Numbered from the stretch's first letter, positions 13,148-28,437 are shown. The stretch is 35,724 nucleotides of DNA from Myxococcota bacterium (GCA_022842935.1 JALHOP010000024.1:1-35724); one strand, 5' to 3'. Program-made: numbers and translations. The notes: generated by a model not told the origin, from the sequence alone.

Positions 13148-15357
13148 GTGGTGTCTCCAGACGGGCGCGCGGCTCTCGCTACAGCGTCGGCATCGATGAT
13201 CTCGGCGACGCGTCCGTCGACGATGATGGTTCCCGATGAGCCACGACGAGGCGCGGGACCGACTTCGACACCGCTGACGTCGTCGATGACATCCATGATG
13301 CGCTCGACGATGATGCCGACACGCGTAATGTCGTCGTCGTAGACGATGGTGAAGAGCGCGTCGCTTGGTTCCGCTGCGCTAGCCCGCTCGCGCGGCTTTC
13401 GTCGACGCTCTTCGAAGATCTCGTTGCTGCGTACCAGGGGCAAGACACCGCCGCGATATTGAACTACGTCGCGGGCGCCGAGGCGCTCGACCTGCAAGCT
13501 GCGAAGCTCCTCGAGCCGGTCCACATGCTCGAGCGGAATGGCCATGTGTCCGCCATCGCGGAAAGAGGCGAGCAAGTAACGGCGCCTGGCGGGCTCTTCG
13601 GGGCGCTGCGCGGGACCTTTTCCTTCGCGGTTCGCGACCTCGTGCTCGAGGACATTTGCCACACGCGCGATGCCTTGCGCGTCGAGGATGATGCCGACTT
13701 TGCCGTCGCTCATCACTGTGACGCCGGAATAGACCGGGATCCCGTCGAGGTGACGCGATAGCGGCTTGACTACGATCTCTTCGGTATCCCCGATGTTGTC
13801 GACGATGAGGCCGAAGCGCTGCCGCGCTGCTTCGAGAACGACGATGTTCACTGCTTCGTCGGAGTCTGGCACCGCTTCGGGCAGTCGAGTCGGCGGCAAG
13901 CCCAGGACGGTCGCCAGGTCGACCAGCGGCAGCAGGGCGCCGCGCAGTCGCAATACGGGCGAAGCGTAGACTTTGTCGATGAGCTTGCTTACTTGCTCGG
14001 CCGGGACCCGTGTCAGCTCCGCGATGCTGACCTGGGGAAGTGCGTAGCGTCCTCCTCCACAGCGAACGATGAGCGCCTGGATGATTGCGAGGGTCAACGG
14101 TACGCGCAGACGGACAGTCATGCCGACGCCGCGCTTGGTGTCGAGATCGATGGTACCGCCGATCCGTTCGACCTGCGTCTTGACCACGTCGAGCCCAACG
14201 CCGCGTCCCGAGAGATTGGTCACCGCCTGGCGCGTCGAGAAGCCCGCGCGAAAGACGAGCTGGGCGAGGTCTCGCTCGCTCATCGTGACCGCCGCCTGTG
14301 TGTCGATGATGTTGCGGGCTACCGCCACGCCTTTGATGCGCGGCAGATCGAGCCCGGCGCCATCGTCGCTGACCTCGACCACGACCTGGCCGCCTTCATG
14401 GTAGGCGCCGAGCCGCACGAAGCCGTGTTCCGGTTTGCCAGCAGCGCGCCGCGCCTCTGGGGTTTCGACGCCATGGTCGACAGCGTTGCGTACCAAGTGG
14501 GTCAGCGGGTCCTTGATAGCCTGCAGGAGGCTACGGTCCACCTCGGTGTCCTGACCCACCATCTCAAGGTGCACTAACTTGTCGACACTCTTCGCCGTCT
14601 CACGGACCAGGCGCGGAAGCGCCGTCCACACCGAGCCGATGGGCTGGAGCCGCGCCTTCATGACCCCTTGCTGCAGCTCGCTGGTGATCGCCTTCAGGCG
14701 CTGGGTTGCCGCTGGCACCAGCGTGCTTCCGGGCTGGGCTAGACCCTGAACGATTTGGTTGCGCGCCAGCACGAGCTCGCCAACGTGATTGAGCAAGCGG
14801 TCGAGCAGATGAACGTCGACCCGCACGGTGCGATCCGTGCTCGCCGGCACATTGGGCTCGTGAAGGTCCTTTAGGGCTTCGGCCACGTTGGCGAACCCCC
14901 GGTGGACTGTTGCCGGCTCGTAGTCGGGGTTTTGTGTGTCGAGGCGCTCACGGAGGCTTGCGAAGTCGACGTCGCCCTCACTGTGAGTCGCCTCGACGGT
15001 CGGCAGCGTGCGGCGTATCGCATCGCCGACGGCGAGGAGCGCGCTCGCGATATCGGTGGTCATGCGGACGCGACCGTCTCGCAGCGACGACAAGAGGCTT
15101 TCGGCGCTGTGTGCCAGCGCCTCGAGCTGCGCGAACCCTAGCCAGGCGCAGGTTCCTTTGATGGTGTGGAAGCTTCTGAAGACGCTCGCGATCCGCTCAG
15201 GGTCACTACCGTTGGCCTCGAGGGCCATGACGTCGCTGGTGATGCGATCGAGGTGTTCACCGGTCTCGACCAGGAAATCCTTGACGATTGCGGCGATGTC
15301 CGAGGCGTCGTCCACTAGTTTGCGCTCGGGCGAGGGTTGCACAATACCCACGCGCAT
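13144..15357 (-). CDS. cheA: CheA histidine kinase with two CheW-like domains, 737 aa
   Basis: The central kinase of the operon. Hpt domain with phosphoacceptor H64 in FHTIKGT (about 20-125); no clear P2 CheY-binding domain, only a linker of about 45 residues; dimerisation helices (about 175-250, with LLNHVGELVLARNQ); ATPase domain with N box HLVRNAVDHG (287-296), G1 DDGAGL (331-336) and G2 GRGVGLD (384-390). The first CheW-like domain spans about 422-570. The second, more divergent one (about 590-735) starts RRRYLLASF and contains VVQYRGGVLPLV. I start at the ATG at 15357. The frame runs on upstream without protein-like sequence, and a GTG at 15315 is an alternative. The chosen start overlaps the divergent permease frame by 21 bases. 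Confidence 0.93.
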   Translation of the reverse strand: MRVGIVQPSPERKLVDDASDIAAIVKDFLVETGEHLDRITSDVMALEANGSDPERIASVFRSFHTIKGTCAWLGFAQLEALAHSAESLLSSLRDGRVRMTTDIASALLAVGDAIRRTLPTVEATHSEGDVDFASLRERLDTQNPDYEPATVHRGFANVAEALKDLHEPNVPASTDRTVRVDVHLLDRLLNHVGELVLARNQIVQGLAQPGSTLVPAATQRLKAITSELQQGVMKARLQPIGSVWTALPRLVRETAKSVDKLVHLEMVGQDTEVDRSLLQAIKDPLTHLVRNAVDHGVETPEARRAAGKPEHGFVRLGAYHEGGQVVVEVSDDGAGLDLPRIKGVAVARNIIDTQAAVTMSERDLAQLVFRAGFSTRQAVTNLSGRGVGLDVVKTQVERIGGTIDLDTKRGVGMTVRLRVPLTLAIIQALIVRCGGGRYALPQVSIAELTRVPAEQVSKLIDKVYASPVLRLRGALLPLVDLATVLGLPPTRLPEAVPDSDEAVNIVVLEAARQRFGLIVDNIGDTEEIVVKPLSRHLDGIPVYSGVTVMSDGKVGIILDAQGIARVANVLEHEVANREGKGPAQRPEEPARRRYLLASFRDGGHMAIPLEHVDRLEELRSLQVERLGARDVVQYRGGVLPLVRSNEIFEERRRKPRERASAAEPSDALFTIVYDDDITRVGIIVERIMDVIDDVSGVEVGPAPRRGSSGTIIVDGRVAEIIDADAVARAARPSGDTT

Positions 15358-17181
15358 TCCAGTTTTGCGACCTTGCGAGACTGCCGCCTTTTCAGGCATT
15401 TGCGAGCGCCAGTGCTGCTCGCTTTGACGATCGCCATTCTCGCCGTGGTCGCGGGGGTGGCCTTGAGCCTCTTCAGCGGACGTACGTCGTCCTGGCTGCA
15501 GCCAATCTACGCGTTCGGCGTGGTCGCGGCGATCGTGGTCGTGGTTGGTCACCTCTTGCCCGAGTCGGCGGAGACGCTTGGTGTGCAGACCCTCTTCGTC
15601 TTTGGCGTTGGGGTCTTGGTGCCGAGCATCGTCGAGCGGTTAGGCGCACGCGCCGATGGCAGCGGCCATCCCCCCGTCCAGGTCGGCTTCATCGCGCTCC
15701 TCGTGCATCAGGCCGGTGACGGAGCCGCGCTGGCGGCGGCTGCGCACGCTGGCGCAGGCCTCGAGGTTGCGATGGCCGTCGCTGCGCACACTGTGCCGCT
15801 CGTCACGCTCATGACCACTCTCATGGCACGGGAGCTCGGCGTGCGACGCGCGTTGCTGCGCGCCTCGTCGATGGCGCTCGCGACCCTCGTGGGTGCTGGC
15901 TCCCTTGCGATCGTGCCCGAATCGACGTTCGAGATGGTCGAGCCGTATGCGGCGGCGCTCATCGCGGGCGTTCTCGTCCACGTCATCTTGCACGCACCGC
16001 CGTCCACGGCGACGCGCGCCTTCCGCGGGCGTTTGCTCGAGCTCTTTGCCATCGCAATGGGCGCCGCGCTCGCCCTCGTCGGCGGACCGCGCGACAGCGC
16101 TTTAGCGGCTGCTTTGTCAGCGACGCTATTGCGGATCGCCCTGGCGGTCGCTCCTGCCCTCTTGGGCGGGCTGGTACTTGCCGCCGCGGTTCAGGCGCTC
16201 GGCGCCCGTCTTCCTTCGACCTGGATGCGAACGGGGCCGCGCCTCTTGCAGGCTCTGCGGGGAGCGGTGGTTGGCGTGCCTCTGCCCGTCTGTACCTGCG
16301 GAGTCCTGCCGACCGCTCGAGCGCTACTCGAGCGTGGCGCAACTCCTGCGTTGCTCGTCGCCTTCGTCGCAGCAGCGCCGCTTCTGGGCGTCGATACGTT
16401 TTTGGTGACTGCGCGCTTCATCGATACGCCGACGGCGCTTCTGCGCGTCGCGTTCGCGGTGGTCGTGGCCATGGTCGCAGCCTTGGCGGCGAGCAGGCGG
16501 GGGCGCACCGAAGCGAGCGGGGGTATTGTCATCCGGGCGCTCGCGCGTTCCCCTCAACGCCTTGCCGATCGCTCCCCGGCGACGCGGCCAGTGCGGGGCG
16601 ACGCGGGGCGAAGTTTCCTCGGGAGGGCCTTGCTCCACTTCGATGAGCTGGTCTTCCACGTCGTACCCTGGGCCGCTGCAGGTATCTTGGTTGCTGCTTA
16701 CGTCGACGTCCTCGTGCCTCCTCACCGCTTCGACGACCCTATAGTCGACGTCTTCCTGGTCACCCTCGCTTCTGTACCACTCTACGTGTCTGCTGCGGCG
16801 GTCACACCAATAGCTGCCGTGTTGTTGCTCAAGGGGCTTTCACCAGGCGCGGCGCTCGCGGGCCTGGTCGTGGGCCCGGCGACCGACATCGCCACGCTGG
16901 CTTTCTTGAGGCGGTCTTTTGGCGGCCGCGCTACCGGTTTTGCCCTGCTTGGCCTCGTCGGTGGTGCGTTGATGCTCGGCTTGGTGGTCAATGTCACTGG
17001 GCTCGTAATTGCTCCGCAACTCACATCCGAGAACGATCTGTTGGCGCGCCTGTCACTTGCGACCCTCGTCGTGCTCGTGGTGCGTAGCATCTGGCAAAGT
17101 GGCGTCGTTGCATGGGCCGAAGCCTTGTCGCGCACGCCGAGCCTCGAATGGCGTGTCTCGCGCGCCTACGCGCGCATGTGA
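15337..17181 (+). CDS. Multi-pass membrane protein: ZIP-like half fused to SO_0444/DUF318-type permease, 614 aa
   Basis: A predicted inner-membrane metal transporter with two parts. Residues about 25-220 resemble the ZIP family: GHLLPES at 71-77 (a ZIP helix-II motif), HQAGDG at 124-129 (like HNxxDG of helix IV) and HTVP at 151-154 (a weakened HExPH of helix V). Residues about 265-600 resemble the DUF318/ArsP group, specifically SO_0444-type Cu/Zn efflux permeases: PVCTCGVLP (317-325), then a His/Asp segment, then VPLYVSAAAVTPIAAVLLLKG and GLVVGPATDIA. Typical members have Cys and Asn where this has Ser (PLYVS) and Asp (PATD). The start is uncertain: TTG 15337 lies inside cheA, and TTGs at 15373 and 15400 or GTG 15412 would still include the first helix. 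An export role for divalent metal is inferred. Confidence 0.75.
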   Translation: MHNTHAHSSFATLRDCRLFRHLRAPVLLALTIAILAVVAGVALSLFSGRTSSWLQPIYAFGVVAAIVVVVGHLLPESAETLGVQTLFVFGVGVLVPSIVERLGARADGSGHPPVQVGFIALLVHQAGDGAALAAAAHAGAGLEVAMAVAAHTVPLVTLMTTLMARELGVRRALLRASSMALATLVGAGSLAIVPESTFEMVEPYAAALIAGVLVHVILHAPPSTATRAFRGRLLELFAIAMGAALALVGGPRDSALAAALSATLLRIALAVAPALLGGLVLAAAVQALGARLPSTWMRTGPRLLQALRGAVVGVPLPVCTCGVLPTARALLERGATPALLVAFVAAAPLLGVDTFLVTARFIDTPTALLRVAFAVVVAMVAALAASRRGRTEASGGIVIRALARSPQRLADRSPATRPVRGDAGRSFLGRALLHFDELVFHVVPWAAAGILVAAYVDVLVPPHRFDDPIVDVFLVTLASVPLYVSAAAVTPIAAVLLLKGLSPGAALAGLVVGPATDIATLAFLRRSFGGRATGFALLGLVGGALMLGLVVNVTGLVIAPQLTSENDLLARLSLATLVVLVVRSIWQSGVVAWAEALSRTPSLEWRVSRAYARM

Positions 17182-17191
17182 GTCCAACAAC

Positions 17192-18939
17192 ATGTCTAGC
17201 GCTCTCCTCCTGGCGTTCTGCCTCGTTGCGCAAGCCAAGCAGGGGGTGACACAGCCCTGGCTCGACTCGCATCTGTCACCCGATGCTCGTGCGGAGGGTC
17301 GCTAACCAGCTCGACGCGCGCAAGGGCGACGTCGCGACGGCCATGCCGTCTGGACTCGCCGTAGCCGCATCGTTCGACGTGCAACTTGCCTACGATGGTG
17401 GCGCCATGATCGGAAGCGAAGCACGCGCCAAGGGATACAACGTTATGCTCGCCGGTGGCGTGAACCTCACGCGTGAACCCCGCAATGGCAGAAACTTCGA
17501 GTACCTGGGCGAGGACCCCTGGCTTGCGGGCAAGCTCGGCGGGGCGCACATCCGCGGCGTCCAGTCGAACCACATTGTTTCGACCGTAAAGCATTTCGCG
17601 ATCAACGCGCAGGAGACGGGCCGCATGGTGTTGTCGGCCAACATCGATGAAGCTGCGCTCCGCGAAAGCGACTTTGCTCGCGTTTGAGCTCGCCATCGAA
17701 GACGGCAAGCCTGGCTCGGTGATGTGTGCCTACAACAAGGTGAATGGCGTCTACGCGTGCGAGCATGACGTTCTGCTCAATCGCGTCCTCAAGAACGATT
17801 GGAGGTACCCAGGCTGGGTGATGTCGGACTGGGGTGCCGTCCACGGCGTCGAAGGACCGCTGGTCGCTGGCCTCGACCAGGAGTCCGGTCAAGAGCTCGA
17901 CACCCAGATCTTCTGGGGCGCGCCGCTCGTCGAGGCGATCAAGGCAGGGAAGGTGAAGGAGGCGCAGAACGACGCCATGGCGCGCCGCATCCTGCGCAGC
18001 GTCTTCGCTGCCGGTGTGGTCGACCATCCCGTGCCGGCGAAGCCGCAAACCATCGACTACGCGAGCCACGCTCAAGTCGCGCAACGCGCTGCCGAGGAAG
18101 GCGCAGTCCTGCTCAAGAATGAGAACGGGCTCTTGCCTCTCGACGCGAAGTTGACCCGCGTTGTCCTCATTGCCGGACACGCTGACGTCGGCGTACTTTT
18201 GGGTGGAGGCTCGTCGCAGGTTCGGGCGGTGGCTGGAACGCCAATTGAGGTCCCTCTCACCAAGGGCGCCTCCTACGACGATGGTACCGATCGCGAGCGC
18301 GCCGTTGCCGCAGCGAAGGCCGCTGATGTCGCTATCGTTTTCGCCACGCAGTGGACGACCGAGGCGAGTGATGTCCCGAACCTCTCGCTCCCCGATGGTC
18401 AGGACGCACTCATCGAGGCTGTCGCGCGGAACAACGAACGCACCGTGGTCGTGCTCGAGACTGGCAATCCAGTCCTCATGCCGTGGCTTTCGAAGGCGAG
18501 CGCGGTCCTCGAGGTCTGGTACCCAGGTGAGCGGGGTGGTGAGGCCATCGCGAGGATTTTGTCCGGCGATGTGAACCCCTCGGGCCACTTGCCCATGACC
18601 TTTCCCGCGAGCGAGAAGCAGCTGCCTAGGCCGGTGCTCGATGGCTGGACAGCGGCCGTCAAAGCGGAGTCCGGAAGGCCCGAAGACGCCGTGAAGCCGT
18701 TCGATGTCGCGTATGTCGAGGGAGCGGACGTCGGTTACCGTTGGTTTGCGGCGAAGAGACAAAAGCCGTTGTTCCCGTTCGGTTTTGGTCTCTCGTACAC
18801 CCGTTTCGCTATCGCGAACGTCGCCCAACGGGGATGGCACGTGCTCGGGGGCACGTACACGTTTACGGCGGGTCAGGATGCTGCCGAAAAGGGAACGCGT
18901 GTGACCGTGCGGCTGTCCGAGCAAAGGCTGGCACCCTAG
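17192..18939 (+). pseudogene. Decayed glycoside hydrolase family 3 (beta-glucosidase-type) gene
   Basis: The ancestral product was a secreted GH3 beta-glycosidase. The ATG at 17192 opens a signal peptide (LLLAFCLVAQAK) and a typical mature start, QPWLDSHLSPDARAE, then hits TAA at 17303. The GH3 sequence resumes in another frame near 17300 (VANQLDARKGDVATAMPSG), so the segment that normally carries DEK and the first barrel strands, very roughly 80 residues, is deleted. A second break is an extra T in the TTT at 17673-17675: removing one base restores ESDLLAFELAIE. The rest keeps the nucleophile segment VMSDWG, the second domain and FPFGFGLSYT, but the C-terminal fibronectin-like domain is shortened. 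It starts 11 bases after the metal permease and ends 37 bases before a convergent kinase. Non-functional unless the frame breaks are sequencing errors. Confidence 0.88.
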
Positions 18940-26566: not shown

Positions 26567-28357
26567 CTAGTCGACGCGCTGTCCGGCTGCCATTTCTTGG
26601 GGCGATGCCTCCGCCGGATCGCGCGCCAGAAACCAGATGATTCCGCCGGTGATGATCGCGGCGGCACCGACACCGCCGCCGATGATTCCGACACGACCCA
26701 AGGTCCGGGCGCTGCTCTTGGCGTCGCCGCTGCTACTTGGGTCGTCGAGCACCTTCGCTTGAAGACCGGCCAGCACGAAGCCACCGATGGCGATAGCGGC
26801 TCCTGCGCCAGCAGTGATCAAGCCGACCGTACGTCGCGTGCTTCGTTGTTCGGCCTCGGTTAGGGCGACGTTTTCGCTCGCCGGTACCGTTGGTATGGTC
26901 CGTAGGATGTCGCCCGCCAGGCGCCGATCATCGCGCTCGAGGTAGGTTAGGCTCACCAGCTCAGCGATAGCGAGTACGAGTGGCTCGTCGTTGCTGCGGA
27001 CACGATCGACGCTCACCTCTCCCGCCTTGTGATTGCCGACGTACGCGACGATGTCGACCTTCGCATCGCGGCCGCTTGGCAAGACCTGCGCCACGTAAAC
27101 CGCCTCAGCCTCACCCATCACCTTCGCCATGCACTGCGCGTCGGCCGTGCAGCCCTCGTCGAGCGGGGCGCTTTCGCGGATATCTGTCTGGGCTACCCCG
27201 CGCAAAACCATCGCAGTCTCGCGCTTGGCGGCGCTCACTGGATCGGGCTCACCGAGCACCGCCTGTGTACCGGCCAGAACTGCCGTTGGCGCAGCCGGGA
27301 GCAGGGCGTCGATGAACGTACGCGCGAGCGGCGGCGCTGAACCCGGACGCACGCCGAGCGCGGCGTCTGCGCTGCGCAGTACGCGGTCTTTCGTTACGGA
27401 GTAGAGCTCTGCATGGACAGGCGTGAGCGCGGGCGCGCCAATGGTGTCACGCGGTGTCGTCGAAACGAGAACGATGTATTCCGAGCGGAGCACCTTGCCG
27501 AGCTCGCGTATACCTTGTTTGCGAACCTCGGGGCTCGGATCCCATGCCTTTGCTCGCGCCGCCGCGAACGCAGAGGCCTCGCGCAGAGGCGTCAACGTTG
27601 GCGCGATGCGCGTCGCCTTCTTGCCGACGACGACGCGCTGACCCCAGGGTAAGCTGCCGGCTCGACTGACGCGCACGTAGTGCTGTCCCAGCAACACGTC
27701 TTTCATCGTCAGCGGTGCAAGTCCGCGATAGCGACCGTCGACCTCGACAACGGCAGGTTCTCCCTCTGGCGCTTCGATCACCAGAGTGCCACGCCCGGCC
27801 GCGTTGTAGCGGGCTGCGATCTGCTGCCAACGCTTGATCATGGGCGGGTTGTAGATTTCAGGGTTAGGTACCGCTTCCGGGTTCAGAGCGAGGACCTCTT
27901 CGATTGCCTCGGCCGCTGCTTTGTTGTCCGAGCGCGTCAATCCAATGGCGCCCATCAGCTCGAGGGCTCGTCCGAGCGCACGCAGGTCACTCGCTTGAGC
28001 TAGGTGATCGCGATAGCCGCTTACCGCGTTCTGGGCGAGCCTTGCGGCTTCGTCGATCAATAGGTCATCGAACTTGGCTCGCGCTGCCCGCAGCTCGCGG
28101 GTTGCCTTGCGCAAGGGTTCGCGGGCGTCCGGCCCCGACACCAGAGCGCCGTCAATCTCCGCGAGGCCAAGCCATGGATGATCGAGGACGATGCCGCGTA
28201 CGCTCGACACGATGGCCATGGCGGCGGGAGAGGCGTTGTCGGTCGGGCTGCCAACGACAACGATTTCGGCCGCTTGCGCGGGCCGTGCGACCACCGTGCT
28301 GAGGCAGCTGGCGAACGCCAGAACCCACATTGTCCCTGTATGCGTGCGTGTGGTCAC
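26567..28357 (-). CDS. Envelope protein with PEGA domain and two C-terminal membrane helices, 596 aa
   Basis: I start at GTG 28357, which has AGGGAAG just upstream; ATG 28330 is the alternative. The N-terminus is a signal peptide (MWVLAFASCLSTVVARPAQAAE). A helical, TPR-like region (about 45-190) is followed by a PEGA domain (about 205-262: GTLVIEAPEGEPAVVEVDGR, then GLAPLTM and GQHYVRV), a fold that often binds envelope components. A mixed alpha/beta region follows, and the last 90 residues have two membrane helices (GLITAGAGAAIAIGGFVLAG and VGIIGGGVGAAAIITGGIIW). This PEGA-plus-hydrophobic-tail layout is common in myxobacterial proteins of unknown role. It is divergent from a Ser/Thr kinase with a PEGA-like tail, which suggests a functional pair. 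Confidence 0.75.
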   Translation of the reverse strand: MTTRTHTGTMWVLAFASCLSTVVARPAQAAEIVVVGSPTDNASPAAMAIVSSVRGIVLDHPWLGLAEIDGALVSGPDAREPLRKATRELRAARAKFDDLLIDEAARLAQNAVSGYRDHLAQASDLRALGRALELMGAIGLTRSDNKAAAEAIEEVLALNPEAVPNPEIYNPPMIKRWQQIAARYNAAGRGTLVIEAPEGEPAVVEVDGRYRGLAPLTMKDVLLGQHYVRVSRAGSLPWGQRVVVGKKATRIAPTLTPLREASAFAAARAKAWDPSPEVRKQGIRELGKVLRSEYIVLVSTTPRDTIGAPALTPVHAELYSVTKDRVLRSADAALGVRPGSAPPLARTFIDALLPAAPTAVLAGTQAVLGEPDPVSAAKRETAMVLRGVAQTDIRESAPLDEGCTADAQCMAKVMGEAEAVYVAQVLPSGRDAKVDIVAYVGNHKAGEVSVDRVRSNDEPLVLAIAELVSLTYLERDDRRLAGDILRTIPTVPASENVALTEAEQRSTRRTVGLITAGAGAAIAIGGFVLAGLQAKVLDDPSSSGDAKSSARTLGRVGIIGGGVGAAAIITGGIIWFLARDPAEASPQEMAAGQRVD

Positions 28358-28375
28358 GTCTTCCCTTGCCGTCCC

Positions 28376-28384
28376 TGCTATAGT
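28376..28384 (+). promoter_or_regulatory. Probable extended -10 promoter of the Ser/Thr kinase gene
   Basis: TGCTATAGT matches the extended -10 consensus TG-N-TATAAT with one mismatch. It lies in the 80-base gap between divergent genes, about 54 bases before the kinase ATG, and predicts a leader of roughly 45 bases. No good -35 is visible. The reverse complement of the same bases also gives a -10-like TATAGC for the divergent gene. Confidence 0.45.
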
Positions 28385-28437
28385 GAGGATGTAATCCAAA
28401 CTCGCGGTTTCTGCTCGCAAAGCGAAGGCACCGGGCC

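Follow-up and report, generated by a model that had tools for sequence, protein, structure and literature searches.

A stretch of 35,724 nucleotides from a Myxococcota bacterium (GCA_022842935.1 JALHOP010000024.1:1-35724), which we refer to throughout as the window, carries a gene in which a homologue of the ZIP metal transporters is joined to a permease of the SO_0444/ArsP_1 type. The known role of ZIPs is import, that of SO_0444 proteins export. Proteins of the joined form make up an old family of wide distribution, conserved across at least ten named phyla, and their N- and C-terminal halves share a history. From the conserved residues and the predicted structures, we consider it an evenly balanced proposition that the protein is a two-module metal transporter in which the permease half exports and a repurposed ZIP half serves that export. 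A joint form kept for so long in many phyla asks whether the ZIP fold can serve metal export at all.

Fusion of these two families in one polypeptide was proposed in an initial annotation of the DNA, and it holds: both halves have homologues in the families named and lie in a single open frame of 614 codons without internal stops (15337-17181, + strand, by translation of the window). Every motif singled out there (HLLPE, HQAGDG and HTVP in the first half; CTCG, PLYVS, GLSPGAAL and GPATD in the second) is located in the translation. The guanine-cytosine (GC) content of the gene by codon position, 0.73/0.53/0.77, is coding-like.

Identity of the two halves

The C-terminal half of the window protein matches Pfam ArsP_1 (PF03773, also DUF318) over residues 262-551 with an E-value of 1.2e-22 and 80.9 bits, above the cutoff of 32.3, in agreement with the DUF318/ArsP_1 identity first assigned to it. 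Against the NCBIfam model for SO_0444 (NF033936) it reaches an E-value of 7.8e-45 and 153.5 bits, below the equivalog cutoff of 300, and a canonical joined protein (L035), at 209 bits, is also under that cutoff; the match to SaoE (NF040736; E 7e-17, 61.7 bits) is likewise below its equivalog cutoff of 325. Among joined members with scores shown, none passes any NCBIfam cutoff, and the joined family could give a testable function to proteins of many environmental genomes. Weak NCBIfam matches of the window protein to MTA phosphorylase and LldR were discarded as composition noise. A different and unusual fusion, of an ArsP_1 permease with a C-side SPFH/Band_7 (HflK-like) domain, was observed in two genomes of the same phylum (L015:1438-3540 and L027:1480-3588).

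The N-terminal half of the window protein matches Pfam Zip (PF02535) at E-values of 0.0021-0.0038 and 16.9-17.8 bits, under the cutoff of 35.1 bits. Zip matches with E<=0.01 were obtained for 40 of 59 related N-domains, the lowest E-value being 3.9e-11, and no other family recurs. A hidden Markov model (HMM) built from 99 N-domains matches three true ZIPs of the same taxonomic order with E-values of 6.7e-11, 3.8e-9 and 5.6e-4, the best value among 600 shuffled control sequences being 0.29, and profile-profile alignment with hhalign gives a probability of 96% with the motifs of transmembrane helices 4 and 5 (TM4 and TM5) in register with those of ZIP. AlphaFold predicts eight helices in this half in both models, and Foldseek places BbZIP chains at ranks 1-6 with a probability of 1.00, followed by a clear gap, with TM-scores of 0.42-0.54 by target. 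Because these TM-scores are moderate (about 0.5), the predicted ZIP fold is supported rather than proven. Solved structures searched by sequence with the N-domain and whole-family profiles returned no match, so the fold is argued from profile and structure comparison instead. The ZIP similarity claimed for the first half is therefore weak in the window copy alone and firm via its relatives, the profile-profile alignment and Foldseek.

Stand-alone ZIP-like proteins of about 210 residues with no permease half occur in the same order (L006, L007, L010 and L046). Three of them score 182-224 bits against the N-domain HMM, and L010 reaches 40.8 bits against Zip, above the 35.1 cutoff. A glutamate racemase-like gene adjoins the stand-alone gene in L006, L007 and L046.

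Spread and shared history of the joined form

A survey of 195 genomes of the same phylum revealed both halves at 20 loci besides the window, 19 of them in one open frame; the remaining locus (L009, G003:C255), from the same order, has a frameshift inside the permease half. Weak matches in other genomes of the phylum (e.g., G033-G037) may be composition noise and were left uncounted. A scan of genome contigs with the window protein alone gave no match, the window copy being too divergent, and a scan with the family alignment across 84,980 species returned 292 relatives. Both halves lie in one open frame in 80/80 of the best-ranked loci of these 292; since the ranking favors full-length matches, this count should not be taken as the proportion among the relatives at large. 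One of the 80 (L058) has the same sequence as L035 of the same-phylum set. The 80 loci come from Myxococcota, Gemmatimonadota, Planctomycetota, Fidelibacterota (Neomarinimicrobiota), Acidobacteriota, Pseudomonadota, Latescibacterota, Hydrogenedentota, Binatota, Bdellovibrionota and Rhodothermota. Distances in separately built N- and C-half trees correlate at r = 0.64 in a mirror-tree comparison, against a maximum of 0.19 over 500 permutations. The window copy has all the features by which we define the joined family: a single frame for both halves, the H-x3-D/E motif of TM4, a His in TM5 and CxC.

These relatives also bear on the notion that the joined frame is an artefact of neighboring genes merged by sequencing error, or a chance open frame. 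The next gene, a GH3 homologue, is frameshifted, so the assembly may contain errors; the same joint nonetheless stands in one open frame at the 19 other same-phylum loci and at all 80 elsewhere, which refutes a chance or assembly-made fusion and leaves an artefact exceedingly improbable. The annotation's description of an unusual transporter thus stands as to the joining itself and falls as to a one-off, since the search for joined homologues that it called for found many. No relative of the joined protein was found on the plasmids searched, and a search for defense systems gave no match. The literature searched for DUF318, ArsP or SO_0444 together with ZIP, with subscription journals and domain-architecture databases outside its scope, yielded no account of the joined form. 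Each part belongs to a known family, and their joint form is so far undescribed in that literature. The two grounds for refutation named in the initial annotation, a first half lacking ZIP similarity and an earlier published joined form, were thus both checked, and within this scope neither applied.

Metal sites across the family

As generally grouped, the M1 site of BbZIP consists of M99, H177, E181, Q207 and E211 and the M2 site of N178, D208 and E240. These eight residues belong to its transport center, in which M1 is the primary site (PMC9873690). Across the joined proteins (n=99 for all residue counts), the H177, E181 and Q207 positions correspond to His124, Asp/Glu128 and His151, and all three are kept in 98/99; HQAGDG, which holds the first two, aligns with the ZIP motif HNxPEG. 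For the window copy the alignment placed four of the five M1 positions: three match (H124, D128 and H151), and the E211 position is Leu, as against mostly Val, Ile or Leu in the family and an acidic residue in 15/99. The M2 ligands are lost: the D208 position (residue 152) is Arg in 93/99 and Thr in the window copy, the N178 position is mostly Ala, Ser or Thr (Gln125 in the window copy), and the aligned TM6 stretch shows no acidic residue. The ZIP half has thus probably kept one metal site, with a positive charge taking the place of the second; nature has in this way provided a test of which ligands a ZIP needs. Such an arrangement speaks against both a standard two-metal importer and an inert scaffold. 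The label "uptake-type" given to this half is not established by the comparison: with three of five M1 ligands matched, the second site lost and Arg in place of Asp208, it is doubtful that the half works as a plain ZIP importer.

Loss of the second-site ligands would also suit a ZIP half that is only an inert scaffold or dimerization platform supporting the permease half, and the static domain of ZIPs (helices 2, 3, 7 and 8) does mediate dimerization (PMC9873690). Were the half inert, however, His124, Asp/Glu128 and His151 should not all be retained in 98/99 proteins spread over ten phyla, and we regard a pure scaffold as unlikely.

All joined proteins have Cys319, Cys321 and Arg370 in the permease half, and the YxC and GPATN motifs are present in 7/7 stand-alone or otherwise-fused permeases checked. 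Cells under Zn or Cu stress need SO_0444 to grow (PMC3219624), and Cd and Cu induce a member of its family in Nitratiruptor (PMC10092412). The family also includes a naturally occurring selenoprotein with UxC (PMC13188914), which supports a functional CxC site. A His-rich tail is found in 48/99 joined proteins and is missing from the window copy.

Divergence of the window copy

The window copy departs from 17 of the 65 near-invariant columns of the family, the most of all 99 members (mean of 1.2 and maximum of 14 among the other 98). Ala327, Leu349, Phe440, Ser485, Asp517 and Phe528 are unique to it; the near-universal residues at these positions are Tyr, Glu, Asp, Cys, Asn and His, respectively. 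The initial annotation had correctly pointed out Ser for Cys (98/99) and Asp for Asn (97/99) and suggested that they could change the choice of metal. The changes are real; as two of 17 departures, they make a specific metal shift no better a reading than overall divergence. Lacking Cys485, Asn517, Glu349, Tyr327, Asp440 and Arg152, the window copy may have an altered substrate or weakened export, as its rank as the most divergent of the 99 also suggests, and it offers natural substitutions at Cys485, Asn517 and Arg152.

The same departures, together with the six residues found in no other member, the missing His-rich tail and the frameshifted GH3 gene alongside, could mark a decaying or neofunctionalized gene whose export half is past handling metal even as the family at large still does so. 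Its frame is, however, intact across 614 codons with a coding-like composition (GC content 0.77 at third and 0.53 at second codon positions), and both CxC and the ZIP triad are retained. Moreover, two members of the same phylum (L016 and L026) are the next most divergent, nearly as much so in the C-half, and lie nearest to the window copy in the C-half tree, so that the window copy more likely belongs to a divergent subclade than reflects random decay; we therefore give the decaying or neofunctionalized gene a low probability.

Functional interpretation

For the two-module transporter that we favor, SO_0444 homology suggests that the permease half would export a soft transition metal of the Cu/Zn/Cd class through the CxC site. 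The ZIP half would be no canonical two-metal importer and might instead be a one-metal module whose task is to capture, gate or exchange metal on behalf of the export half. More tentatively, and with the balance leaning against it, the family may represent an ancient, distinct class of transporter in which a one-site ZIP elevator module and a CxC export permease form one coupled machine, working by exchange or hand-over. Were this so, a fold known for uptake would have been turned to export.

A further alternative makes both halves active in opposite directions on different metals (e.g., import of Zn or Fe with export of Cu or Cd), as a coupled exchanger. The central ligands of both halves are kept family-wide, the halves have co-evolved according to the mirror-tree, and the single chain has been maintained across at least ten phyla, all of which agree with such a design. 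The ZIP half has nevertheless lost its second metal site, the E211 equivalent is acidic in 15/99, and no coupling element is visible from sequence, so we hold an exchanger to be improbable.

Several points weigh against the two-module transporter in its favored form. On its own score the N-terminal half of the window protein is below the curated Zip cutoff, and the window copy is missing near-invariant residues of the family. No metal gene lies beside the window gene, and neighbors of the joined gene in other phyla are mostly housekeeping genes (Lgt, Ddl, gyrase, Hsp90 and branching enzyme); because the neighbors lack a recurrent metal regulator, the case for a metal role is one of homology.

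Gene coordinates and genomic context

The 614-residue count starts from a TTG that falls within the 5' end of cheA on the other strand; possible cheA starts lie near 15351-15399. A GTG at 15412 is the likelier start, since TM1 and the relatives begin there and the overlap with cheA is avoided (Table 1).

Table 1. Position of the joined gene, its domains and its motifs in the window (residues numbered from the TTG start; conservation among the joined proteins)
Feature	Position	Strand	Residues and remarks
Joined ZIP-like/SO_0444-type permease	15337..17181	+	614 aa counted from TTG start
Joined gene from likelier GTG start	15412..17181	+	Residue 26 = TM1 start
N-terminal ZIP-fold domain (predicted)	15412..16083	+	26-249; eight predicted TM helices
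HLLPE	15550..15564	+	72-76, TM2; Pro75 98/99, His72 48/99
HQAGDG	15706..15723	+	124-129, TM4; His124 98/99, Asp/Glu128 99/99
HTVP	15787..15798	+	151-154, TM5; His151 99/99
C-terminal ArsP_1/SO_0444-type permease domain	16120..16992	+	About 262-552
CTCG	16291..16302	+	319-322; CxC thiol pair, both Cys 99/99
PLYVS	16777..16791	+	481-485; position 485 Cys 98/99, Ser only in window copy
GLSPGAAL		+	500-507; permease half
GPATD	16873..16887	+	513-517; position 517 Asn 97/99, Asp only in window copy

The gene lies between chemotaxis genes on the other strand and the broken GH3 gene. The latter, beta-glucosidase-like, spans 17192-18939 (+) in at least three frames (about 17192-17306, 17283-17687 and 17647-18939) and represents a pseudogene or assembly errors. 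Elsewhere in the window, a 617-codon open frame at 26570-28420 (-) has no Pfam match at E 1e-5 and may be a chance antisense frame. The bacterium's own genome, in an assembly about 97% complete, has no second match to Zip and no second match to SO_0444 in these searches.

Across the 80 loci no recurrent metal regulator or chaperone was found near the joined gene, and the neighbors vary by phylum; the genomic context is neutral as to a metal role, and we dropped it as evidence. Two local arrangements do recur. In mostly Neomarinimicrobiota (Fidelibacterota) loci, an lgt-like gene overlaps or directly precedes the joined gene and a D-Ala-D-Ala ligase-like gene follows it (L074, L095, L103, L104, L109, L111, L113, L129 and L132), several of these loci also having a cysteinyl-tRNA synthetase-like gene; this is a stable housekeeping-type cluster with no obvious link to metal. 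In mostly Planctomycetota loci, a bacilliredoxin-like (Disulph_isomer) gene lies 3' of the joined gene on the same strand (L082, L089, L097, L114, L124, L125, L131 and L136).

Comparison with known systems

With SO_0444 (NF033936; PF03773) the C-terminal half of the joined proteins has in common CxC and the second-hairpin motifs YVCASGATP, GLSPGAAL and GPATN, these last motifs being degenerate in the window copy. It differs in carrying an N-terminal ZIP fold, as predicted here, and the window copy differs further in being without the Cys of the second hairpin and the Asn of GPATN; ordinary SO_0444-type members found in this study are stand-alone or end in an HMA domain. SaoE (NF040736) has a related ArsP_1-type permease domain and no ZIP half. 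Like the ZIP family (PF02535; BbZIP, ZupT), the N-terminal half has eight predicted helices, His in TM4 with Asp or Glu at +4, and His in TM5, whereas it is shorter, has lost M2 (Arg at the Asp208 position) and is fused to a permease. The stand-alone ZIP-like proteins of the same order share its HxxxDG and HR motifs and lack the permease half.

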